Virus record (IMG/VR): IMGVR_UViG_3300033233_000106
Coordinates: 1 to 34,888 of that record
DNA length: 34,888 bases
DNA from: a virus
Direction: 5' to 3' (one strand)
The notes below the pieces were generated by a model. That model was not told where the DNA came from, did no database searches, and saw only the letters and a list, made by a program, of their open reading frames with translations. Below are positions 2,811 through 34,888 of the stretch, in pieces. Each line of letters starts with the position of its first letter. Within the stretch, counting starts at the first letter, position 1. The position numbers and the translations under genes were made by a program.

Positions 2811-4285
2811 GCTGCCACCACCGCCTGCCGCAGCTTGCTGCTCTTGCGGCTCCAGAGTTGCGCGAGTTCGGCGTCGATATCCTTCGCGGTCTTGCCGGTC
2901 GTGGTGACGTTGATCGTGACGTTTTGGGCACGTGGGGCGCGGGCGTCACCGTACTCGACCTTCATGTTCCGCGTGGCCTGCTCCTGTGCGTTGTCCTGCA
3001 TCGAGGAGAGCGCGCCGCCCGGGGTGTTGGACACGCCGAAGATGCTGCCGGTTTCACGGAGCTTGAATTCGATCTCTTTCATGGCGCGCAGGACTTCGTT
3101 GAGGTTGTTGAGGGCGGTTGAGGTTTCGATTGAGAGGGTGCGTTTTTGCTCAAAGCTGTCGAACGCCTTGGTGGCCAGCGTGTCGAATCCTTTGACCTTT
3201 GCGACAGCGTCGTCGATATCGAGAGAGACCTTAATGGTCTTGTTTTCAATGAGGCTGGCGATGCTGCCCTTTTTCCCGCCAGGAGCGCTCGCGCTGTCGG
3301 GGGCGGTGATCTTCTCTTGCGAGACAGCGAGGGCCTTTGTTTGCTTGTCTGCCGTCTGGACCGCGCCCGCGAGCTTCATGTACGCATCGGCCTGCGCAGA
3401 CAGCTCGCCAGCGCTGCCCCACAAATCCTTCATGGTCTGCTTTGCTTCTTCGGCGGCCTTGAAATCGAGGCTCAGTATCTTGAACGAGGCAACCGCACCC
3501 ATGACGCCAGCGGCCAGCCGCGTCGCCGCCGCCGCCGCCCCGTAGAAGATCCCCATCACGCCATAGAGCGCCGTCACTGCAATGCCGGATATTTTCAGGG
3601 TCAGGTCGGACCACGACGCCTTGAGCCGGTCGATATTGTCCCCGAGGGACTGAGACGCCCCGGCCGTGATCTTCATCTGCGTCGCGGTCTTGGCCATGAT
3701 CGCCTCATAGATAGCCCCGGACTTCCCGGCATCGTCGGCGCCCTTGGCGAGTTGCTTCATCGCATCGCCGAGCCCTTCCTTGCCGACGATCGAGACCGCT
3801 GCTTTCGCGCTGCCTTTTTGTACCGCGTCCGCGAGCCGGTCAAACGCTTCGGGGACCGACACTCCGGCGATGTCGTTGAACTTCTCGGCGGCCATTGATA
3901 ACCCGATAATCTGCTCGGGAGCCAGCGAGTTCTTGAGCGCCGTTGCCGCCGATTTCGTCGCCTGCTCAATCGAAAACTGCCCCTCGGTCACTTGCTTCAT
4001 GTTCCGGACGATGGCGTCGCCGGTCGTCCCGAACTGCCCGGCCATCAAGTTGAGCTGTTCCTTGACCTCGGCATATCCTGCATAGCGCTCGATTGCCTCG
4101 AACGCCTTGCCCATGAGTTGCATCGCGTCGGTGATGACGAAGTGAATGCTGGCGAAGTTTGCGGCCATGCTCGATACGGAAGACTTGATTTTGTCGCCGA
4201 GGCCGCCGATCTTGGTCTCGATATTGTCGATGACCACCGCAGCGTTTCCGCTCCCGCTGATTTCAATCTCCATCTTCGCCGACAT
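2807..4285 (-). CDS. Tape measure protein
   Basis: The product has 492 residues and is Ala/Lys-rich with long predicted helices. A hydrophobic central segment at about residues 230-270 (GIAVTALYGVMGIFYGAAAA) is typical of tape measures. It is the longest mainly helical protein in the tail block and lies right after the frameshifted chaperone pair, the conserved place for this gene. By the usual ratio of about 0.15 nm per residue it would set a tail of roughly 75 nm, which is short for a siphophage. The start ATG at 4285 directly follows the TAG of the chaperone extension. The C-terminus is basic and ends with the ATGA overlap to the next gene. Confidence 0.85.
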   Translation of the reverse strand: MSAKMEIEISGSGNAAVVIDNIETKIGGLGDKIKSSVSSMAANFASIHFVITDAMQLMGKAFEAIERYAGYAEVKEQLNLMAGQFGTTGDAIVRNMKQVTEGQFSIEQATKSAATALKNSLAPEQIIGLSMAAEKFNDIAGVSVPEAFDRLADAVQKGSAKAAVSIVGKEGLGDAMKQLAKGADDAGKSGAIYEAIMAKTATQMKITAGASQSLGDNIDRLKASWSDLTLKISGIAVTALYGVMGIFYGAAAAATRLAAGVMGAVASFKILSLDFKAAEEAKQTMKDLWGSAGELSAQADAYMKLAGAVQTADKQTKALAVSQEKITAPDSASAPGGKKGSIASLIENKTIKVSLDIDDAVAKVKGFDTLATKAFDSFEQKRTLSIETSTALNNLNEVLRAMKEIEFKLRETGSIFGVSNTPGGALSSMQDNAQEQATRNMKVEYGDARAPRAQNVTINVTTTGKTAKDIDAELAQLWSRKSSKLRQAVVAA

Positions 4286-4986
4286 CTACCCGCCCTCCGC
4301 CGGCGCCGGAGCCGGAGCCGCCTTGGCCGCATCCTTCACCGCGCGCTCGATCGTGGCCAGCAGCCCGACCTCAAACGCCGACAGCCCCGCCTGTGCCATG
4401 ATCACGCCACCCCCGCCGAACTCACGCAGCTCGTTGAGCAGATGCCAGGTGTCGAGCACCCGCACGGTCTCCGTCGGCGCCGGCGGAACCAGGCACTCAC
4501 CGGCAGCACAATCAGGTGCAACACCGTCCACCTCCTCAATCTCGCGGCACGTCTCGCACCGGACGCCGGGGTGCAGCATCCTGGCGCGCACGTGCCGAAT
4601 CAGTTTCCCCGGATCTTCTCCCGCTCGGCCTGGGTGAGCGCCTGGATGTCGTCGGCCATCTGCATCACGAACGCCTTGAACTTGCGGTGGCCGGACATGA
4701 GCGCGTCCCGGTGCTCCGGCGTGAAGGGGTACTCCTGGCCGTCCATCTCGAACCCGCGCCAGCTGACGACGGCCCACTCGCCCCAGAGCCGGGCGAACTT
4801 GTCCTCGTCGGTCTTGCTGGCCGGCTGGTGGGTGCTCGGGTTGTAGTCGAGCTTCGTCGCCTTGCGGTACAGCTCGCGCGCCTTTTCGATCGGCACGTAG
4901 CGCAGCGTGACGAAGGCGGCATCTTCCGGAGCGCCATAGACCACTTCGACCTCGAAGTCGTCGGAGGTGAATTTCCCGAGTTCCAT
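4286..4986 (-). CDS. Tail assembly chaperone, long form made by -1 frameshift
   Basis: Ribosomes that slip by -1 on GGGAAAC (4603-4609) avoid the TGA at 4600-4602 and continue in the frame that ends with TAG at 4286-4288. That adds about 105 residues to the 128-residue short form, about 233 in total. The extension starts LIRHVRARMLHPG, contains a cysteine-rich piece (RCETC, DCAAGEC) and ends in an Ala/Pro tail. The pair corresponds to the gpG/gpGT arrangement of lambda, in which the long form bridges the tape measure to tube subunits during assembly. No ribosome-binding site or sensible start exists for the extension alone, which supports the frameshift reading. Confidence 0.8.
4600..4986 (-). 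CDS. Tail assembly chaperone, short form
   Basis: The product has 128 residues (MELGKFTSDDFEVEVVYG...) and is acidic and mainly helical, with Trp-rich motifs near residues 67-80. It lies between the tail tube gene and the tape measure, the conserved site of the gpG-like chaperone. The zero-frame stop follows immediately after a slippery heptamer. Expected role: transient coating of the tape measure; not part of the mature virion. The start at 4986 is 4 bp after the TAA of the tube gene. Confidence 0.8.
   Translation of the reverse strand: MELGKFTSDDFEVEVVYGAPEDAAFVTLRYVPIEKARELYRKATKLDYNPSTHQPASKTDEDKFARLWGEWAVVSWRGFEMDGQEYPFTPEHRDALMSGHRKFKAFVMQMADDIQALTQAEREKIRGN
4603..4609 (-). promoter_or_regulatory. 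Slippery heptamer GGGAAAC for programmed -1 frameshift
   Basis: In the zero frame the codons read CGG GGA AAC TGA, so the heptamer is phased exactly as X XXY YYZ. It sits one codon before the stop and re-enters an open frame of 105 codons. GGGAAAG serves lambda G/GT in the same gene position. Confidence 0.85.
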
Positions 4987-9187: not shown

Positions 9188-9634
9188 TCACTCTGGCCAC
9201 GAAAATTCTTGATCCATGGAAACCGAAAACGCGACCTGGTACGCCGTGACTGTCGGCGAACTGTAGAGCAGATCGACGCGGCCGGGGATGACGCACTCCA
9301 GGTTCGGCGCGAGTCGCGCGTTGACGAGACTGGTCCTGACGGCACGCACGGTCTCGCCGGCGCCGATCCGGGTGTCGTCCGTGTCCCGCAGCGTGTGAGC
9401 GACGACAAGCACCGTGAAATCCATCGGGACGTGATAGTTCGGCCCGTCGAGCTGCTCGGGATCGTCGCCCGCGAAAAGCACAGCGAGTAGCGGGAATCCC
9501 TTGACCAAGCGGCCCTCGATTATATCGTCGAGTTGTCCGGCGTAGGCCCGGACCGATTTCGCGGCGGTGACGTCGGCGGCAAGCTTGTCGATCACGAGCT
9601 GCTGCACGTCGAGGAAGTCGCGCGGGGTGCTCAT
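9188..9634 (-). CDS. DUF1834/Mu gp37-like tail joining protein
   Basis: The product has 148 residues (MSTPRDFLDVQQLVIDKLAA...). The pattern of an N-terminal helix, a central strand block (GFPLLAVLFAG, DFTVLVVAHTLRD) and a C-terminal strand (SSPTVTAYQVAFSVSMDQE) resembles the phage DUF1834/Gp37 family and tail-terminator folds. The start overlaps the upstream gene by ATGA. In this position it would cap the tail and join it to the head. The assignment is from pattern memory. Confidence 0.6.
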   Translation of the reverse strand: MSTPRDFLDVQQLVIDKLAADVTAAKSVRAYAGQLDDIIEGRLVKGFPLLAVLFAGDDPEQLDGPNYHVPMDFTVLVVAHTLRDTDDTRIGAGETVRAVRTSLVNARLAPNLECVIPGRVDLLYSSPTVTAYQVAFSVSMDQEFSWPE

Positions 9635-14227: not shown

Positions 14228-15641
14228 TGGCGGCGGCCTCCTCGGCGGCGATCTGCTCCGGGGTTTTCTTCTGCCCGGGCTTAAACGCCGGCATCGGACG
14301 CAGCCCCTGCAGCCGCATCGTCTCGGCGATGTTATCCTCGACCTTTTTCAGCGCTGCCGGCCGGTCCATCGAGGGGTTGCGCGCGATCATTTCGTCAACC
14401 GCAGTCGCGAGCCCGATCCGAATCGCTCGATCCCAGTCGGTGCGCTGCTCCAGGCTCATGGGCTCTTGCGGGAGCTGGTAAGCAATGCTCGGCGCCGGCA
14501 CGTCTTCCCATCGCACGCGCTTGCCGGAATGGATCGCGTTGACGAACAGTTCCATGCGGATCAGCTCGCGTTCCCAGGGGCCGAAGAGGCTCGCGCGGTC
14601 TTTTCGATAGTCGTTCAGCGCGGCCTGCTCGGCAACGATTTTGATTCCGCTGTCGCCTGACTGCGTGGCCGCAACCGCACTTTCAGGGATTCGCCGCGAG
14701 AGCAGGAACATGCGCAGGTAGAGGTTGATCGACTCGACCTGGGCAGCGACCTGGGCATCGGCTTCGATGAATCCCGCCTCGCCGTCCTTTGAGAGCTTGA
14801 TGTGCGCGTCGGGGCCGACTTTGATTTGGTCTTCAAGCAGGTCGCCCTTGGTGTAGAGAATTGACCCGGAAAGAATCATCCGATAGTGGTGGTCCGACAT
14901 CTGCCGATTCACGGCGCGGTTGATTGCGACCAGGTCGGTGATTGGCTCGCCCATGAGCGTCCAGCGCGGCTTGCCGTTGTGAAAAAGCACGAACGGGATG
15001 CGCCCGTATTTGTGGACGCCGCCCGGGTAGGCGAGCTGCTCGGCTGCGGAGTATTTCGGCTCGGCGTTGACCAAGCGCTCGTAGGTGGTGTCTGACCAGA
15101 GCTGCTCGACCAGGCCCATGTCCTCCTCGAGGCTCGTGCGGAAAGACAGGATCAGGCGCCCTAGTTTCACGGGCTTGCTCGGCTTCGGGTCGTAGTCGAG
15201 TTGGTCGCCGGTGTAGAGCGCGATCTCGAGCGGCTGTCCCTGCTCGACCATCGGCCGGCACGCCGTCACGCCGGAGACCAGTGTGAAGCGATCGACATCG
15301 GACATGGTTGACCAGTGCTCGTCTTTCCACGCCGCAAACTCGTCAGCCCACGACTTATCTTTTTCCTTGAACGTGTAGGCCGGGCACTCACGATAGAGCC
15401 CGCAGAGCGCGTCAACAATCGGCTCAACGATCTTGAAGCAGACCTTCGGGCGCTTGGTCCACTTTTCCGGGTTGGCGTGCATGTGCTTGTATGACTGCTC
15501 CAGATCGCGGACCATCTCGTCGTAGTCTTCGAGGTAGAGCAGGGCAAGCTCGGCATTGCGCTGGCGCTCGCGGGTCTCTGAATTGACGGCACGGCGGGCG
15601 GATGACTTGACGATTTGCTCGGCGCGGGAGGACGGGGTCAT
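14220..15641 (-). CDS. Portal protein (SPP1 gp6-like)
   Basis: The product has 473 residues and starts at ATG 15639-15641 (MTPSSRAEQIVKSSARRAVN), overlapping the terminase stop as TGATG; an in-frame ATG at 15695 would intrude on terminase. It follows terminase and precedes the gp7-like gene, as in SPP1-type head modules. Typical portal features are the N-terminal helical region with ALCGLYRECPAYTF, the GRIPFVLFHNGKPRW strand block, and the long helix with GPWERELIRMELFVNAI near residue 360. The dodecameric ring would form the DNA entry vertex. The C-terminus is Ala-rich. Confidence 0.8.
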   Translation of the reverse strand: MTPSSRAEQIVKSSARRAVNSETRERQRNAELALLYLEDYDEMVRDLEQSYKHMHANPEKWTKRPKVCFKIVEPIVDALCGLYRECPAYTFKEKDKSWADEFAAWKDEHWSTMSDVDRFTLVSGVTACRPMVEQGQPLEIALYTGDQLDYDPKPSKPVKLGRLILSFRTSLEEDMGLVEQLWSDTTYERLVNAEPKYSAAEQLAYPGGVHKYGRIPFVLFHNGKPRWTLMGEPITDLVAINRAVNRQMSDHHYRMILSGSILYTKGDLLEDQIKVGPDAHIKLSKDGEAGFIEADAQVAAQVESINLYLRMFLLSRRIPESAVAATQSGDSGIKIVAEQAALNDYRKDRASLFGPWERELIRMELFVNAIHSGKRVRWEDVPAPSIAYQLPQEPMSLEQRTDWDRAIRIGLATAVDEMIARNPSMDRPAALKKVEDNIAETMRLQGLRPMPAFKPGQKKTPEQIAAEEAAANG

Positions 15642-16954
15642 CAGCCCTGTACTCCCGTGCTCACGGCGGCCGGAGCCGGCGTAGCAAACAAGCACATCAG
15701 CATGTCCGCCCGATCCGGCGACTTGAGCCCGCGAGCCTTCATTTTCTTCTTACTCTCGATCTTGATTTGCCCGCGATCCGTCATCTCGTAGAGCCTCGCT
15801 GTGAGCTGAGCACGCAGTTTCTTGTCGGCCGGGATCTGGATGCTTTGCCGGTTCGGATCACGAAAACGCGAGCCCAGCGCGCCGGAAAGCTGCTCGCTTG
15901 CCCAGTCGGCGTAATGCTCTTTGTCGCGCGGCTCTCCGCCGAAATGAACGCCGTTCACCTTGACAGGAAGATCCTTGAGCGTGCGGCGAACCATGTCTAC
16001 CACGCCCCCGCCAACGCCATCGTCATCGATGTTGATCTGCCTCGTGCGCGGGTAGTTCCGGTAGCACGCAACCACACGCCCGGCCGTCTCGGTTGTGTCT
16101 TCCTTGCAGTGCGCCTCGAGGTGATCGCAGACAGGGCCGGTGCGATGCCCGATGCATGTCTCGTCATCGCCAAAGCGCGCCACGTCACAGCCGATAGCCT
16201 CGTCACCTTTAGCCTCAAGCTCAGCCAGTTCGGCAGCCACAACATCCTTGTAGGCGATGACGTTCTTGACACCTGAGAAAGCATCCCAATCGCCTTCGAG
16301 GTACGCGCGTGTCCAGGCTGGCGTGCCCCCGAAAAGCTCACGCAGGCCGCTCTCGTAATCCGACGGAAGGTGCGGATTGTCTCGCGGAAGGGCTGGCGTG
16401 AAGCTGTGATCGGGGAGGACGGCGTCGATGAACCGCGAACGCAACCATCCGGGCTCGGGATTGCTTGCCAGGAGCCCCTGAAAGCGACATGGCACGCCAT
16501 CAGTAGACGGAGGAATCTTGAGCCGCAGGCGTGTGGCGAGCATGAGGAAGGAATCCTCTTCGGCTTCGCTGGCCTCGTCGATTCCGAATCCGGTGAGCTC
16601 CATCGATTTGATTTTCTCGCGGTCCTCGGCAGATCCAACGCCGCCGTACCAGATCGACGATCCGTTGTTGAGCCTGTATAGGCCGTCGGTGAGGTTGTGT
16701 GATGCGAAAATAGGCGCAAGTTCTCCGGCGTACTTGTCGAGCGTGAGGTACGTCGTGCGCCGGAAGGTCTTCGCTTCGCGTCGCCCAAGGTACCAGCGCG
16801 ATCCGGGCCAGCGCAGGCACGCGCGCAAGGCGCTGTTGCAGAGCCAGACGGATTTGCCGCCACCCATCGCGCCACCGTAGAGCTTGTAGCGGGCGGCGCT
16901 GCGGTGCGCGATAAGCTGCCGGGGTGTTGGCTCGTACGAGCTTTCAAGGTCCAC
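15641..16954 (-). CDS. terL: Terminase large subunit
   Basis: The product has 437 residues with a GTG start at 16954, overlapping the small-subunit gene. The ATPase domain has Walker A GGAMGGGKS (27-35), Walker B with catalytic acid FGIDEASE (123-130) and coupling motif ASNPEPGW (163-170). The nuclease domain has GCDVARFGDDET (255-266), the acidic cluster NIDDDGVGGG (308-317) and SPDRADM near residue 415. All key residues of an RNase H-fold headful or cohesive-end terminase are in place. It pumps DNA through the portal and cuts the concatemer. Circular closure of the contig would suit headful packaging, but the packaging mode is not shown directly. Confidence 0.93.
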   Translation of the reverse strand: MDLESSYEPTPRQLIAHRSAARYKLYGGAMGGGKSVWLCNSALRACLRWPGSRWYLGRREAKTFRRTTYLTLDKYAGELAPIFASHNLTDGLYRLNNGSSIWYGGVGSAEDREKIKSMELTGFGIDEASEAEEDSFLMLATRLRLKIPPSTDGVPCRFQGLLASNPEPGWLRSRFIDAVLPDHSFTPALPRDNPHLPSDYESGLRELFGGTPAWTRAYLEGDWDAFSGVKNVIAYKDVVAAELAELEAKGDEAIGCDVARFGDDETCIGHRTGPVCDHLEAHCKEDTTETAGRVVACYRNYPRTRQINIDDDGVGGGVVDMVRRTLKDLPVKVNGVHFGGEPRDKEHYADWASEQLSGALGSRFRDPNRQSIQIPADKKLRAQLTARLYEMTDRGQIKIESKKKMKARGLKSPDRADMLMCLFATPAPAAVSTGVQG

Positions 16955-17477
16955 CGGGCGCCGGGTCTTCGTCAGGGATTTTCAGGATGACGTTGGTGGT
17001 GATCGAGCCCGAGTGCTGCACCTTGTCCGCCACCTTCCCCGCTCGCCTGTTGGTGATCATGTCCACGGCCTTGAGCCGGTCCCCGGCCTCCTCAGCCGGC
17101 GAGAGCGCGATCTCCACCGGCACCTGAAGGATCTGCGCGAACGCCGGCGTGTAGGCGGCCTCGATTGCGCTCTGCACTTCGGCGTCGCTCATCACGACCG
17201 GCTGCCCGGCCATCGTCGCTAGGACGCGGGCGCGGTCGAGCTCATCGCGACGGGTGAGGGCTTTGCGCAGGCGGGTGGTCTCGCGCTTTTCGTCGGCGAG
17301 CTTGCGGCACTTGAGGCAGTCGGTGATGGGCGGGGCGGGTTTGAGTTTGGGGGCTACGGGTGCATGGGATTTCTCCTTGCGTGCTGGCTTTTTGGATTTC
17401 ACAGCCCCTCGCCGCGTCGAAGATGCCCCGTGCTGGGGGGATTGCGCTTTGGCCTTCGGGGTCCGGGGCTGTCGCAT
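16944..17477 (-). CDS. Putative terminase small subunit
   Basis: The product has 177 residues (MRQPRTPKAKAQSPQHGASS...). A basic, Pro-rich tail of about 50 residues is followed by a CLKC pair (residues 54-57), a coiled coil (RETTRLRKALTRRDELDRAR) and a C-terminal part with AVDMITNRRAGKVADKVQHS, the kind of ending seen in small terminases and terminase-adjacent DNA-binding proteins. It overlaps the large subunit start by 11 bp. The CxxC pair is unusual for the family. Role: recognition of the packaging site, inferred mainly from position. An ATTAGGC box lies 7 bp before its ATG (17485-17491), a possible remnant of the cassette core GTTAGGC. Confidence 0.6.
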   Translation of the reverse strand: MRQPRTPKAKAQSPQHGASSTRRGAVKSKKPARKEKSHAPVAPKLKPAPPITDCLKCRKLADEKRETTRLRKALTRRDELDRARVLATMAGQPVVMSDAEVQSAIEAAYTPAFAQILQVPVEIALSPAEEAGDRLKAVDMITNRRAGKVADKVQHSGSITTNVILKIPDEDPAPGGP

Positions 17478-17559
17478 GGGACAAGCCTAATTCCCCTTTT
17501 CAGGATTGTCCAGTCCGCTCAGCAACACACCTCAACAAACAGCAACGTTCCGCAACACA

Positions 17560-17772
17560 TTATTTTAGAATGCCCGCCGTTTTCCCCATCACTTCAAGCC
17601 AGTCAAGCCGCGCCGTGTCACGCAATGCCCACATCAGTTCCTGCTCAAGAGAATGCAACTTCAGGCTGTTTTGCTCTATTGCCTTCATGAACTGCTCTCG
17701 TTCTACGTCTCGCTCCCAGCGCATTTTGTTCCGAGCAAGCGTCATCCGCTCAAGCTTCCCTATTGCGGCCAT
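17560..17772 (-). CDS. Small charged protein of a likely inserted gene pair
   Basis: The product has 70 residues (MAAIGKLERMTLARNKMRWE...), Glu/Arg/Lys-rich and almost wholly helical, probably a coiled coil. It starts at ATG 17770-17772, overlapping the stop of the upstream gene (TAATG). Base composition is visibly poorer in GC than in the flanking terminase and resolvase genes, which suggests separate acquisition. The 82 bp after it (17478-17559) are AT-rich with a short GTTGCTG repeat and no gene. Function unknown. Confidence 0.6.
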   Translation of the reverse strand: MAAIGKLERMTLARNKMRWERDVEREQFMKAIEQNSLKLHSLEQELMWALRDTARLDWLEVMGKTAGILK

Positions 17773-18011
17773 TAGCGCCAGTCCTCCTTCATTTTCGTTT
17801 CCATCACAGATAGATCAGATATTGCCCGTTTTGTCGCATAAGCATACCCGTCAAGCCACTCGGCGCTTTCTTCGTCACGCTCTCCCTTGCAGTTATCGTA
17901 TTTCCGCTGAAGATACTGCTTTATTTCGCGTATCATCTCCAGTTTCCCGTAGCGTTGGGCGTTGTTCATTGCGCCGCGTATCTCTTCCGGCGAACTCGGA
18001 TCGTAAACCAT
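17772..18011 (-). CDS. Small acidic/charged protein behind attC-like half-site
   Basis: The product has 79 residues (MVYDPSSPEEIRGAMNNAQR...), highly charged and helical, with no family I recognise. The ATG at 18009-18011 lies only 10 bp after the core box GTTAGGC, with AGGAGG in between. That is the same arrangement of box, ribosome-binding site and ATG as in the plus-strand cassettes. It forms an AT-richer pair with the next gene. Likely a transferred accessory gene. Confidence 0.65.
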   Translation of the reverse strand: MVYDPSSPEEIRGAMNNAQRYGKLEMIREIKQYLQRKYDNCKGERDEESAEWLDGYAYATKRAISDLSVMETKMKEDWR

Positions 18012-18021
18012 AAAACCTCCT

Positions 18022-18040
18022 GCCTAACCCATGCGTGGAG
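18022..18040 (-). repeat. attC-like half-site (L'-R' side)
   Basis: On the minus strand 18040-18023 reads CTCCACGCATGGGTTAGG, an 18-bp exact match to 29131-29148 in the plus-strand cassette region; the core GTTAGGC is completed at 18022. The partner arm (GCCTAAC plus a complementary L'' arm) is not seen upstream. ACCTAAA at the stop of the helix-turn-helix gene (18087-18093) is the nearest candidate for a decayed partner box. Confidence 0.6.
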
Positions 18041-18087
18041 ATTGTTGGCCTGATCTCGTTCCCCATGGATTTGTTCCGGTTCTCCTT

Positions 18088-18258
18088 TTAGGTTTCCTTC
18101 GGCCTTTCAATCTTCACCAGCCAATCCCGCCCGCCCGGATCTTTCGTCGCCGTCACCTTGCCGACCCGGCACCACCAGCGCACCGTGAACGCAGACTTGC
18201 CGACGAAAACCGCGTACTGCTCGACCGTGAGCCAGACGGCACCGTCAGGGGTGGTCAT
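18088..18258 (-). CDS. Small winged-helix DNA-binding protein
   Basis: The product has 56 residues and starts at ATG 18256-18258 (MTTPDGAVWLTVEQYAVFVG), overlapping the resolvase stop by 14 bp. WLTVEQYAVFVGKSAFTVRW followed by WCRVGKVTATKDPGGRDWLV is the pattern of excisionase/AlpA-type helix-turn-helix proteins: the first helix recognises an acidic motif, then the wing carries basic residues. It ends with TAA at 18088. A role in DNA binding for replication or regulation is likely; excision is less so because no integrase is present. Confidence 0.7.
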   Translation of the reverse strand: MTTPDGAVWLTVEQYAVFVGKSAFTVRWWCRVGKVTATKDPGGRDWLVKIERPKET

Positions 18259-18880
18259 CGCGTCGATCTCCCGCAGCAGGTAGCGCCAAGCTCTCCTCCT
18301 GCCCCACCCGCACCTCCCGCAGCACGATCTCCGTCCTCGGCGTCTCGGAGTACCGCTTGCGCACCAACACGTCCGTCAGCGCCGCGTCGTGCGCGTAGAG
18401 CACCCCTTCGAGCGCATCGGTCACGAGCTTCCCGAGGTTGTCCCAGTCGGGCTTCGTTACCGGTCGTTCGATCCCGGCGAGCATCGCCTCGCGCTTTTTC
18501 TTCGAGCAGCTCTTCGGCAGATCGCGGAAGAACGTGAGTTCCGCCTCGAGGGCGCCGGCGAGGATCGACGCGCGGCCCTCACGCACCACCTGCTGCGCGA
18601 CCGCGACGATGCTGCCCTCGGCGTCGGTGACGTGGCTGGGCGTGTAGGACTTCACCACGGGCATCGGCTTGCCGTTGGGCCCGCGGTAGGTCACCAGGCT
18701 GCCATCCTTTCGACGCAGGACGAACGTGCGGGCCCGGGCCTTGCTCACAGGTTTTCCGTAGACCACGAGTCGGATCTCGCGTGCCCCGAAAACATCTCGC
18801 ACTTCAACGTCGAATCGGCTGTTCGAGGATCGATCGTCTCGCTGGGTGTCAGGAACGTCTCGCAGTCCAAGATTGATCAC
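18245..18880 (-). CDS. rusA: RusA-like Holliday junction resolvase
   Basis: The product has 211 residues with a GTG start at 18880 (GTGA overlap). After a unique N-terminal 35 residues it has GKPVSKARAR (42-51), a long insert, then KPDWDNLGKLVTDALEGVLY (143-162) with the aspartate pair D145/D147 and D155, and HDAALTD (164-170). These are the metal-binding aspartates and the core of the RusA family. The enzyme would resolve replication and recombination branches before packaging. At 211 residues it is much longer than E. coli RusA (120), owing to both ends. Confidence 0.85.
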   Translation of the reverse strand: MINLGLRDVPDTQRDDRSSNSRFDVEVRDVFGAREIRLVVYGKPVSKARARTFVLRRKDGSLVTYRGPNGKPMPVVKSYTPSHVTDAEGSIVAVAQQVVREGRASILAGALEAELTFFRDLPKSCSKKKREAMLAGIERPVTKPDWDNLGKLVTDALEGVLYAHDAALTDVLVRKRYSETPRTEIVLREVRVGQEESLALPAAGDRRDDHP

Positions 18881-26493: not shown

Positions 26494-26636
26494 TGCTCGC
26501 CCCTCTCGGCCTCGATCTCGGCCATGTACCGCGACGTCACCGCCGCGAAATCGGCTATCGACACCGTGCCGACCAGCCATCCGTGGTAGGCGGCGGCGAG
26601 GGCGGCGAAGCGTGCGAGGCTGAAGTCGGGTCTCAT
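26490..26636 (-). CDS. Small early protein, unknown
   Basis: The product has 48 residues (MRPDFSLARFAALAAAYHGW...). It starts at ATG 26634-26636, overlapping the stop of the ribbon-helix-helix gene (TAATG). Two short helices, Ala-rich then acidic (MAEIEAERGEQ). No family recognised. Confidence 0.5.
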   Translation of the reverse strand: MRPDFSLARFAALAAAYHGWLVGTVSIADFAAVTSRYMAEIEAERGEQ

Positions 26637-26806: not shown

Positions 26807-26851
26807 TTTACCCCCCCTGTTGTGATTTCCCATACCCACAATCTGCACGCT

Positions 26852-26898
26852 ATATTTATTTTGTCAAGAGAATAATTTACTTGACAGAAAATAAATAT
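26852..26898. promoter_or_regulatory. AT-rich 47-bp palindrome, candidate operator
   Basis: ATATTTATTTTGTCAAG (26852-26868) and CTTGACAGAAAATAAATAT (26880-26898) are inverted copies that differ only by a two-base GA insertion in the right arm. TTGACA appears on both strands. It stands between the divergent leftward early operon and the rightward cassette region in a GC-rich genome. No well-spaced -10 follows either TTGACA, so an operator or a promoter of another sigma type are both open. Confidence 0.55.
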
Positions 26899-26907
26899 GG
26901 GTTAGGC
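26898..26907 (+). repeat. Cassette core box TGGGTTAGGC at the left edge
   Basis: ATGG-GTTAGGC here matches the right arm of the attC-like sites at 28331-28341 and 29139-29149 and the half-site at 18022-18040. No left arm is present. In an integron this is how the first cassette joins the insertion site, so it may mark the left end of the cassette block. Confidence 0.5.
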
Positions 26908-27244: not shown

Positions 27245-27387
27245 AAAAAACGGGAACATCACAGGTCAACGTCCGCCTGCCTGCCGTGACCGTGCGGCAG
27301 GTAGCGGCACTGAGAAAAAAACTCGGGACCGCGAGCAACGCCGCCGTGATAGTGATTGCGGTTGACCGACTGGCGCAGTCCCCGTGA
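27241..27387 (+). CDS. Small ribbon-helix-helix-like protein
   Basis: The product has 48 residues with GTG start 27241 (GTGA overlap before and after). SQVNVRLPAVTVRQVAALRK followed by a second helix NAAVIVIAVDRLAQSP fits a strand-helix-helix DNA-binding domain with nothing else attached. It may regulate the methyltransferase gene that follows. Confidence 0.55.
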   Translation: MKKTGTSQVNVRLPAVTVRQVAALRKKLGTASNAAVIVIAVDRLAQSP

Positions 27388-28067
27388 TTATCCACGGAGA
27401 CGCGCGGCTGGTTCCGCCGGGCGGCGATGCCGACCTGGTTGTGATCGACCCGCCGTGGGACTCGCCGGAGCTGTTTCGGTGCGGCAGTGATTCTCCGAAC
27501 CGGATTGTATTCGCCGACGGATTCCGCGCGGGGGACGCGATCCGCGAGAACGGGCCACCAACATGGGTGTTCGTTTGGGACTGCGTGTCGAGTTGGTACA
27601 CGCAGAACCGTCCACTGAAAAGAATGAAGCTCGCGCTCTGGTACGGACGAATATCGGACTACAACCCAGACGGATACTTGCACGGAGGCCCGTGCGGAAA
27701 AAATCGAGTCGTAACGAACACGCGCGGAGCTTACCTGTTCGAGCCCGCAAGCGGGAAACACCTGTCCGACGTGTACCAACAACCGATAACGTCACTGCGG
27801 GCCGCACAGGTTCACGGGCACAGCAAGCCGATTCATTGGTTGTGCTACCTGCTCGCCAACTGCTCGGCAAGTTGCTCTCGCGTCGTTGACCTGTTCGCGG
27901 GGTCCGGCGCGGTTGGCGTTGCGGCAAAGATCATCGGGAAAAATTATGCGGGATTCGAAATAGACAAGTCGTCTGTGGTTGCCGGAAATGCGGCGATTGC
28001 CATGGCGGTGCGAAAACGAGAAACAACACAGGAGGAACTGCAATGGCCCTCGGCTACCACAAAATAA
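27384..28067 (+). CDS. DNA methyltransferase (amino-MTase, beta class), first
   Basis: The product has 227 residues with GTG start 27384 (GTGA overlap). The catalytic motif IV IDPPWDS (21-27) comes before the AdoMet-binding motif I VVDLFAGSGAVGVA (167-180), the order of beta-class N4-cytosine/N6-adenine methyltransferases. The residues between (WVFVWDCVSSWYTQNRPLKR) form the target-recognition part. It is rather small for the class. No restriction endonuclease is adjacent, so it may protect phage DNA. The 3' end overlaps the next gene by 25 bp. Confidence 0.8.
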   Translation: MIIHGDARLVPPGGDADLVVIDPPWDSPELFRCGSDSPNRIVFADGFRAGDAIRENGPPTWVFVWDCVSSWYTQNRPLKRMKLALWYGRISDYNPDGYLHGGPCGKNRVVTNTRGAYLFEPASGKHLSDVYQQPITSLRAAQVHGHSKPIHWLCYLLANCSASCSRVVDLFAGSGAVGVAAKIIGKNYAGFEIDKSSVVAGNAAIAMAVRKRETTQEELQWPSATTK

Positions 28068-28339
28068 ACACCAGCGCGGCCCGGAACAAAATCAACGAGT
28101 GGCGCGGCGGCCGCCGTTGTTCCGGCGACGATGCGCAGTTCGTGCAGCCGGGGACGGCAATAACATGCCCGAACCGTGGCCTAGGGAAAACGTGCCTTGG
28201 GTTCGTCTCTGACTGCGACGTTGTTTTTGTGCGGTTCGATTCCGGTGATCGCGTCCAGATGACGGGCCGAGAGATTCGTTTGTTGTTTCCGCCTAACATC
28301 CCGTTGAGCGGCCGTAGGTCCGCTCCAACGATGGGTTAG
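28043..28339 (+). CDS. Unknown protein ending inside attC-like site
   Basis: The product has 98 residues (MALGYHKINTSAARNKINEW...), with GGAGGAA before the ATG. A small beta-rich domain is likely (FVQPGTAITCPN, DCDVVFVRFDSGDRVQMTGR). The last 16 residues (PNIPLSGRRSAPTMG) are encoded by the attC-like site, and the TAG stop lies in its right box GTTAGGC. Reading into the recombination site is usual for cassette genes. Function unknown. Confidence 0.6.
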   Translation: MALGYHKINTSAARNKINEWRGGRRCSGDDAQFVQPGTAITCPNRGLGKTCLGFVSDCDVVFVRFDSGDRVQMTGREIRLLFPPNIPLSGRRSAPTMG

Positions 28340-28341
28340 GC
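28291..28341 (+). repeat. attC-like recombination site 1
   Basis: R'' GCCTAAC (28291-28297), 5-nt spacer ATCCC, L'' GTTGAGCGG (28303-28311), 8-nt loop, L' CCGCTCCAAC (28320-28329), 5-nt spacer GATGG, R' GTTAGGC (28335-28341). L'' and L' pair over nine bases with one extra C in L'. R'' and R' pair fully and the spacers do not, the layout of a folded attC. At 51 nt it is at the short end for such sites. Confidence 0.7.
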
Positions 28342-28550: not shown

Positions 28551-28579
28551 TGTAGTTTTACCACCTACTTGTGTTAGGC
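28545..28579 (+). repeat. Degenerate attC-like site
   Basis: The right box GTTAGGC is intact (28573-28579). GTTTAAT at 28545-28551, over the stop codon of the gene before it, may be the left box. The inner stem is only GTAG/CTAC (28552-28555, 28565-28568). It lies between two genes, each with its own ribosome-binding site, as a cassette border should, but the fold is poor. Confidence 0.35.
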
Positions 28580-28609
28580 GCAGTTTTTAATTGTTCGAGA
28601 GGAGAGACG

Positions 28610-29116
28610 ATGACAGGCTTTCCGCCCGTGCTCGATATGTGCTGCGGCCCGCGCATGATGTGGTTCGACAAGGACGACGAACGGGCGGTGTTTCTCGACA
28701 AGCGCAAGGAACGCCACGCGATGAACCGCCCGAAGCGCGGGACGGTGGAGTACACGGAGACGTGCCCGGACGTGCTCTGCGACTTCACGCAACTGCCGTT
28801 CCCTGACGGGGTGTTCTCGCTGGTGGTGTTCGATCCGCCCCACTTCGAGCGGTCGGGTAACATCGGATACCTGGCGAAGAAATACGGGTGGCTGCCTGAT
28901 GACTGGCGCCCGATGATCCGCGCCGGATTCTCCGAGGGCTTCCGCGTGCTGGCGCCTGGCGGGACGCTGATTTTCAAATGGACGGCGACGGAGAACCCTG
29001 TTTCCGAAATCTTGAAGCTGACGCCGATGAAGCCACTGTTCGGGCACAAGTCTGGCAAGCAGTCGATGACACATTGGATTGCTTTTTTGCGGCCTAACAT
29101 CCGTCGTGAGCCGTGA
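28610..29116 (+). CDS. SAM-dependent methyltransferase-like protein with DPPH motif
   Basis: The product has 168 residues and starts at ATG 28610 (MTGFPPVLDMCCGPRMMWFD) behind GAGGAGAG. LDMCCGPRMMWFDKDDERAV (8-27) takes the place of motif I, FDPPHFE (74-80) is the catalytic-type motif IV, and FRVLAPGGTLIFKW (about 112-125) is the usual strand pair after it. A KSGKQSMTHWIAFL end completes a family often seen in phages. The target (DNA or other) is unknown. The TGA stop lies inside attC-like site 2, directly after its left box, as in integron cassettes. Confidence 0.7.
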   Translation: MTGFPPVLDMCCGPRMMWFDKDDERAVFLDKRKERHAMNRPKRGTVEYTETCPDVLCDFTQLPFPDGVFSLVVFDPPHFERSGNIGYLAKKYGWLPDDWRPMIRAGFSEGFRVLAPGGTLIFKWTATENPVSEILKLTPMKPLFGHKSGKQSMTHWIAFLRPNIRREP

Positions 29117-29149
29117 GCGGAGCGAATTGGCTCCACGCATGGGTTAGGT
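29092..29149 (+). repeat. attC-like recombination site 2
   Basis: R'' GCCTAAC (29092-29098), spacer ATCCGT, L'' CGTGAGCC (29105-29112), 16-nt loop, L' GGCTCCACG (29129-29137), spacer CATGG, R' GTTAGGT (29143-29149). L'' and L' pair over eight bases with a single extra C in L', at the same relative place as in site 1, although stem and loop sequences differ. Shape conserved while sequence varies is the hallmark of attC sites. Its right arm recurs at 18023-18040. Confidence 0.7.
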
Positions 29150-29169: not shown

Positions 29170-29331
29170 ATGACGCCACGAGAACACGTTCAGGCCGCGA
29201 TAGAGCACCTGCTGATAGCGCAGGACCAGCTTGAAGCGGAACACGTCGCGGACGGCTACGGCAGCAAATCGCGCCCGCTGCGGTTCGTCGAGAACGCGCT
29301 CCTGGCATTAAGTCAGGCATACCCGAAATGA
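29170..29331 (+). CDS. Small cassette gene before methyltransferase
   Basis: The product has 53 residues (MTPREHVQAAIEHLLIAQDQ...); ATG 29170 behind GGAGG, 20 bp after the box GTTAGGT. Two amphipathic helices joined by a GYGSKSRP loop. The stop overlaps the next start as ATGA, so the two genes are translated together. Function unknown. Confidence 0.6.
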   Translation: MTPREHVQAAIEHLLIAQDQLEAEHVADGYGSKSRPLRFVENALLALSQAYPK

Positions 29332-29993
29332 GCGAGCGCGTGGTGATCGGGGACGCGGTGTTGTGGCACGGCGATTGCCTCGAAATCCTGCCGACGCTGC
29401 CGAAGGTGGATTGCGTTGTGACGGACCCGCCGTATGGGATTGCGTGGAGCAGGGGCGCCGGCACCGGGCCGAAGATGAACTGCAAGGGGCACGACGGAAT
29501 CCAGAACGACCACGATACCAGTTACCGCGATAACGCCCTGGCGCTGGTTGACGCCCCAGCCGTGGTCTTCGGGTCGTTCTACGCGCCTGCTCCGGCACGG
29601 GTGAAGCAGGTTCTCGTGTGGCACAAAAGCGGCGACTCCGGGGTAATCGGCTCGGTGACGGGATTCCGCCGGGACGCAGAACCGGTGTTCCTCTGCGGAA
29701 AATGGCCGGTAAGGAAAGTTGAATGGTCCTCGGTCCTGCGCTCGCAATTTGGCCAATCGTCAATCGTCACCGAAACCGGACACCCGCACACGAAGCCACA
29801 CGACCTGATGAGGAAGCTGCTGGCAGCGTGTCCCCCCGGCACCATCCTTGACCCCTTCATGGGCTCCGGCACCACGGGAGTCGCCGCCGTGCAGATGGGT
29901 CGCAAGTTCATCGGCATCGAAATCGAGCGCAAGTATTTTGACATCGCGTGCCGGAAGATCGACGATGCACAAAAACAGGTGCGGTTGTTTTGA
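29328..29993 (+). CDS. DNA methyltransferase (beta class, DPPY), second
   Basis: The product has 221 residues. VTDPPYGIAW (31-40) is motif IV with the DPPY typical of N6-adenine enzymes, LDPFMGSGTTGVAAVQMGRK (174-193) is motif I, and FIGIEIERKYFDIACRKI follows. The IV-then-I order makes it beta class. HTKPHDLMRKLL (about 154-165) is the conserved lead-in to motif I. It is an orphan: no nuclease gene is nearby. Protection from host restriction or epigenetic control are the likely roles. Two bases after the TGA stop comes ACCTAAC, the left box of the last attC-like site. Confidence 0.85.
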   Translation: MSERVVIGDAVLWHGDCLEILPTLPKVDCVVTDPPYGIAWSRGAGTGPKMNCKGHDGIQNDHDTSYRDNALALVDAPAVVFGSFYAPAPARVKQVLVWHKSGDSGVIGSVTGFRRDAEPVFLCGKWPVRKVEWSSVLRSQFGQSSIVTETGHPHTKPHDLMRKLLAACPPGTILDPFMGSGTTGVAAVQMGRKFIGIEIERKYFDIACRKIDDAQKQVRLF

Positions 29994-29994
29994 T

Positions 29995-30064
29995 ACCTAA
30001 CCAGGGGATAGGTGGCAGCGGCTTTACCGGTTCAGGGCCCGTAGCTACCCCGACTGAGTTAGAC
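29995..30064 (+). repeat. Third candidate attC-like site (degenerate)
   Basis: ACCTAAC (29995-30001) and GTTAGAC (30058-30064) fit the RYYYAAC and GTTRRRY consensus boxes. GGGGATAG (30004-30011) pairs with CTACCCC (30045-30051) with one extra A in the left arm. The spacers are unequal (2 and 6 nt). It lies right behind the stop of the second beta-class methyltransferase and would close the last cassette. Confidence 0.45.
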
Positions 30065-32296: not shown

Positions 32297-34867
32297 TTAT
32301 TCCCACCACTCCACCGCGTTGAACGTCGCCTTATTCACCCCATCGCGAGAAACGGACTCAATCCAGAACTTCACACCCTCCCAAAAGCCCATGCCCGTGG
32401 GCGTGATCGTGTCGCCGATTTGCAGGTCGGTGTTGTCCCAGAAGACGGGGAAGGAGAGGGTGCGCATCACGCGGTTGCGCTGGAGCAGGTAGATGTCGCC
32501 GACGTCCGCCGCCTGGTTCGCATCGTAGACCATCCTTAATTCGAGTGGATCGCCCGAGAGCACCGGGTAATTGCCAACGATGTTTTCAACGAGCACGCTC
32601 TTGCGGTATCGATCTTTGTCGCCGGCAGGGCCGTCGTTCTTGTCCCAGCGCAGCGTGAGCGAGTTCTGCACGTCGTCGCGCCGGGTGTAGCCGCAGGTGA
32701 ACTCGGCGCCGGCGCCGGCCAGATCGGCGATCGAGATCGTCCGCACGGACGCGGGCGCCGCCGAGGGGATGACCTTGAGGTACCACTTGCCGAGAGCGAA
32801 ATAGACGATGCTGCGCGACTCGAACGCCATGCGGTACAGTTCATCGAGCGGGTCAACGTCTTCGGTCACGCGCACGGACAGGGCGTACTCGGGTGACTGC
32901 GCAGCGTAGAACGTCCCGGCCTCATCAAAGGACGTGGTGTCGATATCGGCCTCAGTAAAGCCGAGCTTTCCGACGATCCACTTTTTCATGACGTGATCGG
33001 GCCTGGTGATGGCAGCCGCGGCCGTGCCGTAGAACGTGCTATCGGCGGGCAGGCCGTAGCCGCTGGCGTAGATGCGGCGGAAGTACTTCTCGTCTTTCAC
33101 CGTGCCTGTCTTGACGAGCGCTGTCCCGTTTAAAATGCAGAGGTATGACGCGTCGACCGATACGTCGAACAAGCAAAACGGCTGCACTGTCCATGAAATT
33201 CCAACGTCAAGGCCCCAATTCAGCGCAGGCACGGTGATATAGAGGGGGAAAGCGCCAGGGCCGACGACCTGCCACCACTCGACCCATGCGCCATTCCACC
33301 AGCGATAATGAGTTGACCCGCTCCACATGACTGCCCATGGGTTGCTGCCGATTTTATATTTCAGCGTTCCGCCACGGTCAACCGTGCCGGCCTGACCTGT
33401 CGGGTATTGCGTAAACGATCTTTCGGTTATGCCGAGCTGGAGGCGCAGTCTCGTATGCGTGTACTGAGGAATGCCGCCGCCGTCCAGGTACGGGTTGGCT
33501 ATCCAATTAAATGTCTTGCTCGACGACGCCCCGTTCGTCGTGAAACCGTCATTCAGCGCCACGCGACTATCGTCAGACGGCACGGCGTCGCCGCCTGAAA
33601 TGTCGATTTCGTCCAGTATCGTGTTTGGCACAACGAGCGAAGATTTCGGAATTTCGATCTCATAGCGCCCATCAACAAAGTATGTCGAGTAGACCGAAAT
33701 CGGCGCGAGCAGATCGCCGAACTCGCCATACACGGCGTCAACCGAAGCCAGATCGTTTTCCGAAATAGCAACGGCTGAGTTTGCTGAATCAGCGGTGAAT
33801 TCTGTGACGAGCGCATTTACTCCATGGGCGGCGGCGGCCGTTCCGCCAGTGCCTCTTGTGCATCCCGTGAACTGCGTCTTTGACACAGCGGTATAGGTGA
33901 TGCGCTCGCTTCCAATCCAGATCACGAGACTGCTTGACAACCCGAACCCCGCAGCAGTCTTGACGGTTATCGTTGTCTGCGAGGAATTTATTGCACTGGT
34001 CAGGCGACACGTTTTCGCTGAGTAGTCGGTCGGGTACTCTGCAATGATTGCCCCGGCTGTATGCGCTGCTGCAACCGTGCCGCCTGGAGTTCCTCGGGTG
34101 CATCCGCTAAAGTAATTCGTCCCTGCCGTCGTGTTCTTTGTCGCCCATACGATTCGTTCGCCGTCAATCCAGATAACTTTTTCCTCGTCGCCATATTCTC
34201 CAAACCCACCCGCGCCCTCAGTCGGCGTTGTGACGCAGTTAATCGTGGTGGAGTCCGCACTAATATTGTCGTTTAGGTGGCACCAGTTGTCTGTCTCGAA
34301 CACCGGCCATCTGATCCTGCGGCACTCGACTGTCTTAAATTGCCCGAGTAGGTACGGGAATGCCTTGCCTGATTCGCTCGGCAGGCATAGGGGGAAGTCG
34401 GCGCTGAACATTTTGGAGAGAGAGAACGCCTTCGCTTTATATTCGGGGACGCCGGTACAGCGCAGCGTCAGCGAGGCGCGCGTGATGTTCTGCGGCTCTT
34501 CGGCAATGCCGACGAAGAGCGGGACTTGCGGCGTTGTTTTCGTGCCGTCGCGGAAGACGTAGGCGACTTCTACCTTGGCGCCGACGATGGGGTGCGCGTC
34601 GTTGATTTCGACAAGGGCGGTGTGGTGCGCCGATGACGGGTAGTAGATTTTCAATATTGGCACAACAAGAAAATCCCTGGGGACGGCCGGAGTGAAGTAG
34701 ATTTTACCGCCTGGCGTGTTCCCGGTGATCGTCACGGTCTGCGTCGGGTACGAAAACGCCTGTGTAACCTCCATCGTCTTGCCGACAAGACAATTTGCAG
34801 TCCAGACTCGCCGGGTGCCAACTGAACATTCTGCCGTGCCCGCGCCGGTATAGTATTCCCCCGCCGC
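32297..34867 (-). CDS. Tail tip / hub protein, remainder of the 1051-residue gene
   Basis: This continues the gene that starts at 711. Residue 196 of the full protein is encoded at 34865-34867, and the TAA stop is at 32297-32299. An apparent ATG at 34871-34873 is made by the fold-back tail and is not the start. Two imperfect copies of a 70-80-residue module lie at about 391-473 and 482-552, sharing VIWIDGERIVW / VIWIGSERITY and GCTRGT-rich segments, probably beta domains on the tip. The C-terminal 300 residues (DPLDELYRMAFESRSIVYFA, NRVMRTLSFPVFWDNTDLQI) resemble the hub region of siphophage tip proteins. It likely contacts the host and closes the tail. Confidence 0.8.
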   Translation of the reverse strand, partial: AAGEYYTGAGTAECSVGTRRVWTANCLVGKTMEVTQAFSYPTQTVTITGNTPGGKIYFTPAVPRDFLVVPILKIYYPSSAHHTALVEINDAHPIVGAKVEVAYVFRDGTKTTPQVPLFVGIAEEPQNITRASLTLRCTGVPEYKAKAFSLSKMFSADFPLCLPSESGKAFPYLLGQFKTVECRRIRWPVFETDNWCHLNDNISADSTTINCVTTPTEGAGGFGEYGDEEKVIWIDGERIVWATKNTTAGTNYFSGCTRGTPGGTVAAAHTAGAIIAEYPTDYSAKTCRLTSAINSSQTTITVKTAAGFGLSSSLVIWIGSERITYTAVSKTQFTGCTRGTGGTAAAAHGVNALVTEFTADSANSAVAISENDLASVDAVYGEFGDLLAPISVYSTYFVDGRYEIEIPKSSLVVPNTILDEIDISGGDAVPSDDSRVALNDGFTTNGASSSKTFNWIANPYLDGGGIPQYTHTRLRLQLGITERSFTQYPTGQAGTVDRGGTLKYKIGSNPWAVMWSGSTHYRWWNGAWVEWWQVVGPGAFPLYITVPALNWGLDVGISWTVQPFCLFDVSVDASYLCILNGTALVKTGTVKDEKYFRRIYASGYGLPADSTFYGTAAAAITRPDHVMKKWIVGKLGFTEADIDTTSFDEAGTFYAAQSPEYALSVRVTEDVDPLDELYRMAFESRSIVYFALGKWYLKVIPSAAPASVRTISIADLAGAGAEFTCGYTRRDDVQNSLTLRWDKNDGPAGDKDRYRKSVLVENIVGNYPVLSGDPLELRMVYDANQAADVGDIYLLQRNRVMRTLSFPVFWDNTDLQIGDTITPTGMGFWEGVKFWIESVSRDGVNKATFNAVEWWE
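34742..34867. repeat. Direct terminal repeat, right copy
   Basis: Same 126 bases as 1-126; redundant sequence that closes the circle. Confidence 0.9.
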
Positions 34868-34888
34868 GGGCACGGCAGAATGTTCAGT
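34821..34888. repeat. Fold-back inverted repeat at the contig end (artefact)
   Basis: 34865-34888 is the exact reverse complement of 34821-34844 (24 bp) with a 20-nt loop. At the true continuation (127 onward) this sequence is absent. A 21-base unmatched tail that copies nearby sequence in reverse is typical of a read or assembly fold-back, not of phage biology. Confidence 0.8.

Follow-up and report, generated by a model that had tools for sequence, protein, structure and literature searches.

An 18-nt box, CTCCACGCATGGGTTAGG, stands in two exact and inverted copies 11 kb apart in the genome of an uncultured phage, and the question is whether the copy at 18 kb marks a second place at which a gene cassette entered the genome. 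The window analyzed here is the whole virus record (34,888 bases), in which the copies lie at 18040-18023 (-) and 29131-29148 (+); a third copy, with 3 mismatches, is found at 28323-28340 (+). With up to 3 mismatches allowed, CTCCACGCATGGGTTAGG is matched 0.02 times in shuffled sequence, and inverted 18-mer matches number 0.025 per window in third-order Markov sequences, which places the identical inverted box reported in an earlier note, exact at both positions, beyond chance. This box forms one arm of attC, the site that belongs to integron gene cassettes, as its earlier description as a cassette arm had anticipated. An Rfam search gave no match.

Complete attC sites were detected with a covariance model that includes the R and L stems and was built from six aligned attC sites of class 1 integron cassettes of plasmids. 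The features of the cassette array at 26.9-30.0 kb are as follows.

26897-26907, plus strand: ATGGGTTAGGC at the low-coordinate edge, a possible last attC with R' lost, missed by the covariance model
27384-28067, plus strand: DNA methyltransferase (N6_N4_Mtase)
28291-28341, minus strand: attC1, a complete attC site (covariance model, 41.1 bits, E 1.6e-8)
28571-29116, plus strand: DNA methyltransferase with its 3' end inside attC2 (phrog_954, 1e-61)
28573-28579, plus strand: GTTAGGC before the methyltransferase gene, without the remainder of a recognizable attC
29092-29149, minus strand: attC2, a complete attC site containing the CTCCACGCATGGGTTAGG box (covariance model, 30 bits, E 1.2e-5)
29328-29993, plus strand: DNA methyltransferase (N6_N4_Mtase)
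29995-30001, minus strand: GTTAGGT just behind the last methyltransferase, possibly the first array border in minus-strand polarity

The same model gave lower scores on the plus strand (24.0 bits for attC1 and 17.9 bits for attC2). The hairpins at the plus-strand copies have the ends GCCTAAC and GTTAGG(C/T), and a single base bulges from each inner stem; R'' (RYYYAAC) and R' (GTTRRRY) pair as GCCTAAC/GTTAGGC and ACCTAAC/GTTAGGC in the two sites, and on the minus-strand reading the L''/L' stem of both sites carries its extrahelical base in L''. When 492 kb of phage sequence was scanned with the model, nothing scored above 13.9 bits outside methyltransferase-linked loci. A CALIN is recognized by at least two neighboring attC sites with no integron integrase nearby; attC1 and attC2 are 0.75 kb apart, and the TIGR02249 and PF00589 profiles detected neither an integron integrase nor another tyrosine recombinase in the record. 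Because complete attC sites are present and the record has no integrase, the 28-30 kb region is a phage-borne cassette cluster without integrase (CALIN). Such phage CALINs, with methyltransferases among their cargo, have already been described, for example in Tetrasphaera phage TJE1 (PMC9892861), which the array resembles in having attC without an integrase in a phage genome and small ORFs and DNA methyltransferases as cargo. An uncultured phage is thereby added to the few known carriers of integron cassettes.

Polaribacter phage P12002L, a reported attC carrier, gave no match better than E 0.96, so the model, derived from class 1 plasmid cassettes, misses some AT-rich attC sites and leaves room for further ones. 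It detected no attC in four more distant methyltransferase-bearing phages (L077-L080), and an attC-family pattern search of viral_contigs gave no match; the sole pattern match in genome_contigs (L020) lies inside an apparent sensor-kinase gene and was judged to be chance. Between a ribbon-helix-helix gene and the array, an AT-rich long inverted repeat at 26845-26907 ends in ATGGGTTAGGC and is possibly an operator or the array's last attC. Folding had suggested 29995-30064 as a third attC, a candidate that was rejected at 7.7 bits in the covariance model. The ORFs upstream of attC1 and of attC2 each read into the site in the same frame (Pro-Asn-Ile), and a cassette exchange at attC1/attC2 would preserve the upstream frame and supply a stop.

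Both complete sites score best on the minus strand, and the array genes lie on the plus strand. Plasmid cassettes gave strong model matches on the gene strand, as did three attC sites of TJE1. Two other virus contigs, L022 and L023, encode methyltransferases 79-80% identical to that at 28571-29116 of the window; their attC sites (40.2 and 24.5 bits in L022, 27 bits in L023) are all on the minus strand, opposite to the genes. Polarity was also counted without the model, from the arm of the L stem that holds the extra base when read on the gene strand. The extra base is in the 5' arm in 8/8 scored controls (two further plasmid sites were unscorable) and in the 3' arm in 6/6 sites of the window, L022 and L023. 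The attC polarity is thus opposite to the genes in all six of these sites and in none of the eight scored controls, although the six are not independent because they surround related genes. This opposition in three virus contigs was unexpected and distinguishes them from TJE1, whose attC polarity agrees with its genes; the window differs from TJE1 also in its lone truncated site 11 kb from the array. In several phages, DNA methyltransferase genes adjoin attC sites. The L022 pair comprises two 61-nt sites (3439-3499 and 3972-4032) that are 93% identical, have non-canonical R' boxes and are both minus-strand attC by the model; they flank a methyltransferase that belongs to a phage recombination operon. 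L023 has two attC-like sites of reversed polarity directly behind the methyltransferase (4477-4570 and 4776-4901), the first of which is weak (11 bits) and overlaps the start of the next ORF.

Instead of lying on the attC strand and ending beside R'', as in a canonical cassette, the genes start beside R'' and run against attC. Integrases bind the folded bottom strand of attC and recognize its extrahelical bases (PMC3053210), and polarity should therefore matter for recombination. Read on the minus strand, the array would have ordinary integron geometry, running from the bare GTTAGGT at 30001 (-) through units ending in attC2 and attC1 to what may be an AT-rich final site at 26.9 kb, and every array gene would be antisense to these cassette units. 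If the reversal holds more widely, phages would keep cassettes in the orientation that an integron leaves unexpressed.

The copy of the box at 18 kb has the following surroundings.

15641-16954: large terminase
16944-17477: small terminase
17560-17772, minus strand: g2, 70 aa, a single predicted helix, putative cassette gene
17772-18011, minus strand: g1, 79 aa, a small helical protein, putative cassette gene, with Shine-Dalgarno and ATG directly behind the half-site
18022-18040, plus strand: R''-spacer-L'' half of attC, GCCTAACCCATGCGTGGAG, which is the box on the other strand (exact 18-nt match to attC2)
18088-18258: short helix-turn-helix (HTH) ORF
18245-18880: RusA

The AGGAGG, the ATG and the two AT-richer genes that had been described behind this box were recovered as ORFs, with a GC content of 50.9% versus 62.8% for the genome (rank 6 of 1378 450-nt windows, counted from the AT-rich end). 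Their placement between the HTH gene and terminase also held, with the RusA-HTH pair on one side and the terminase genes on the other. No homologue of g1 turned up in phages, plasmids, viral contigs, PHROGs or NCBIfam, and none of g2 in phages, plasmids, PHROGs or NCBIfam, and neither protein matched a Pfam family above cut-off; neither had one among the cassettes searched. Single-sequence structure models of both proteins are plain helices.

A full attC was not recognized at 18022-18085, where R'' and L'' are present, L' and R' are missing and the covariance model gives 4.8 bits; the hairpin of this flank is barely better than those of shuffles (P about 0.08). The opposite assignment, of the box as an R'-L' half, was ruled out by the bulge side and the model score, which fix the polarity. 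An integrase that acts cleanly cuts within R', and the L' arm would remain entire. Since that arm is missing, the half-site implies a later deletion or decay, or an event not mediated by integrase. The combination of GTTAGG(C/T), Shine-Dalgarno and ATG recurs at 18028, 28335, 28573 and 29143, with 17 nt from the R'' arm to the ATG at 18 kb and 24, 37 and 27 nt behind the other three, respectively. Because the gene start (Shine-Dalgarno and ATG, 17-37 nt) adjoins R'' in both places, the genes are oriented opposite to attC and need phage or cassette promoters rather than the integron Pc.

On the far side of g1-g2, the ATTAGGC before the small terminase gene (17491-17485, minus strand), previously proposed as the other border, is present at the level of chance: its 83-nt stretch should hold 0.24 one-mismatch matches to GTTAGGC (P 0.21), and it has no arm or hairpin. 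A decayed left arm, for which a search of 17478-17560 had been proposed, was not seen there. Four in-phase CAAC motifs with a period of 10 fill 17520-17559, directly after g2 and just upstream of the small terminase gene, and are a candidate packaging or regulatory site. These motifs cross 17547, the only GTT able to serve as the other border, and the candidate insert borders 17547 G|TTCCGC and 18077 G|TTCCGG were dropped for this reason.

The large terminase had relatives in 17 contigs and RusA in 25. Of these contigs, L003 alone keeps the order orf92-RusA-HTH-TerS-TerL, with 130 bp between the end of its HTH gene and the small terminase and without g1-g2; searches via the portal and small terminase added no junction relative, and those via RusA returned L003 again. 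A relative with the HTH-terminase junction and without the two genes, of the kind that the earlier note had proposed to look for, was thus found, but its small terminase is unrelated to that of the window; the whole interval has therefore diverged, the insertion point cannot be fixed and an empty site is not proven. The absence of g1-g2 from L003 supports their late arrival without establishing an empty site, and may come from replacement of the whole interval.

The best reading is that the 18-kb locus is a truncated attC of the array's family with two probable cassette genes, a second integration not being demonstrated. The suggestion of such an integration is upheld as far as an inverted arm before a compositionally odd gene pair that L003 lacks, but at 17.5-18.0 kb there is one half-border and no far border. 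The connection that the note made between the boxes at 18 kb and 29 kb is correct in kind. Taking both loci together, the phage carries an integrase-less array at about 26.9-30.0 kb, which holds methyltransferase cargo and two complete attC sites, and we consider it fairly probable that the truncated attC at 18.0 kb is what wear has left of a second captured cassette, with g1-g2. The site is read as a truncated attC because of the exact 18-nt match to attC2 against an expectation of about 0.02, and g1-g2 are favored as having arrived as cassette cargo because they are AT-rich, repeat the R''-joined gene start and are missing from L003; the lack of a complete attC at 18 kb, of a far border and of homologues of g1-g2 counts against this account. 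A host integrase probably inserted the cassettes into the phage during infection; deletion or decay would then have removed the L'-R' half of the 18-kb copy and fixed g1-g2 between the HTH gene and the terminase genes. The half-site would illustrate, in a modest way, how an array-independent position may become permanent for cassette genes. More speculatively, and with rather low probability, both loci represent a phage-adapted cassette form in which the cargo is antisense to attC and its gene starts are joined to R''. Such cassettes, moved by host integrases, would be silent under the integron promoter but active within a phage operon, and the 18-kb half-site would be one of them, frozen by the loss of L'-R'.

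The strongest competing explanation is that illegitimate or short-homology recombination brought in only an attC fragment, next to g1-g2 as ordinary phage genes of the lineage. Small AT-rich ORFs between conserved genes are common to many phages, and the half-site stands alone at 18 kb, with no far border and with neighbors not known in cassettes. The junction of gene start and R'' arm is nevertheless exactly that of the array, the GC content of g1-g2 is low and L003 lacks them, and we regard the chance adjacency as unlikely. A clean second integrase-mediated insertion bordered by ATTAGGC would account for the arm common to 18 kb and 29 kb and for the ATTAGGC before the small terminase; it is improbable, since that match is at chance level without arm or hairpin and a cut at R' would have left the L' arm that is missing. 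That the box serves two operons as a conserved promoter, operator or leader is still less credible: it precedes a Shine-Dalgarno and ATG at both places, but at 29 kb it is inside a full attC hairpin recognized by a model from unrelated integrons, and a promoter-like site is absent at 18 kb. Chance similarity, at about 0.02 expected matches and with the match falling on functional parts of attC2, can practically be dismissed.

The favored reading, a truncated attC with captured genes, has counterparts in known systems. According to PMC12901181, which cites Partridge 2009, cassettes with attC reduced to parts such as R'' are a described type in mobile integrons; as in the 18-kb copy, only R'' and its surroundings are recognizable and the rest is deleted. 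Unlike these, the 18-kb copy is outside any array, in the phage packaging region, and its R'' adjoins the start of a gene, not the end. Genomic attG sites also receive cassettes (Loot 2024, cited by PMC12901181), which resembles the present case in that cassettes land in non-integron DNA; such an insertion would leave nearly the whole attC, whereas the 18-kb copy is half a site with an undefinable target.

Two other repeats were observed in the record. A 23-nt exact inverted repeat, CCGATTTCGCGGCGGTGACGTCG, is present at 9553-9575 and 26532-26554, 17 kb apart, and is not explained by the attC family. The record ends carry a 126-nt direct terminal repeat (1-126 and 34742-34888) with a 28-nt fold-back at the extreme end, which together may be an artefact of assembling a circular genome.
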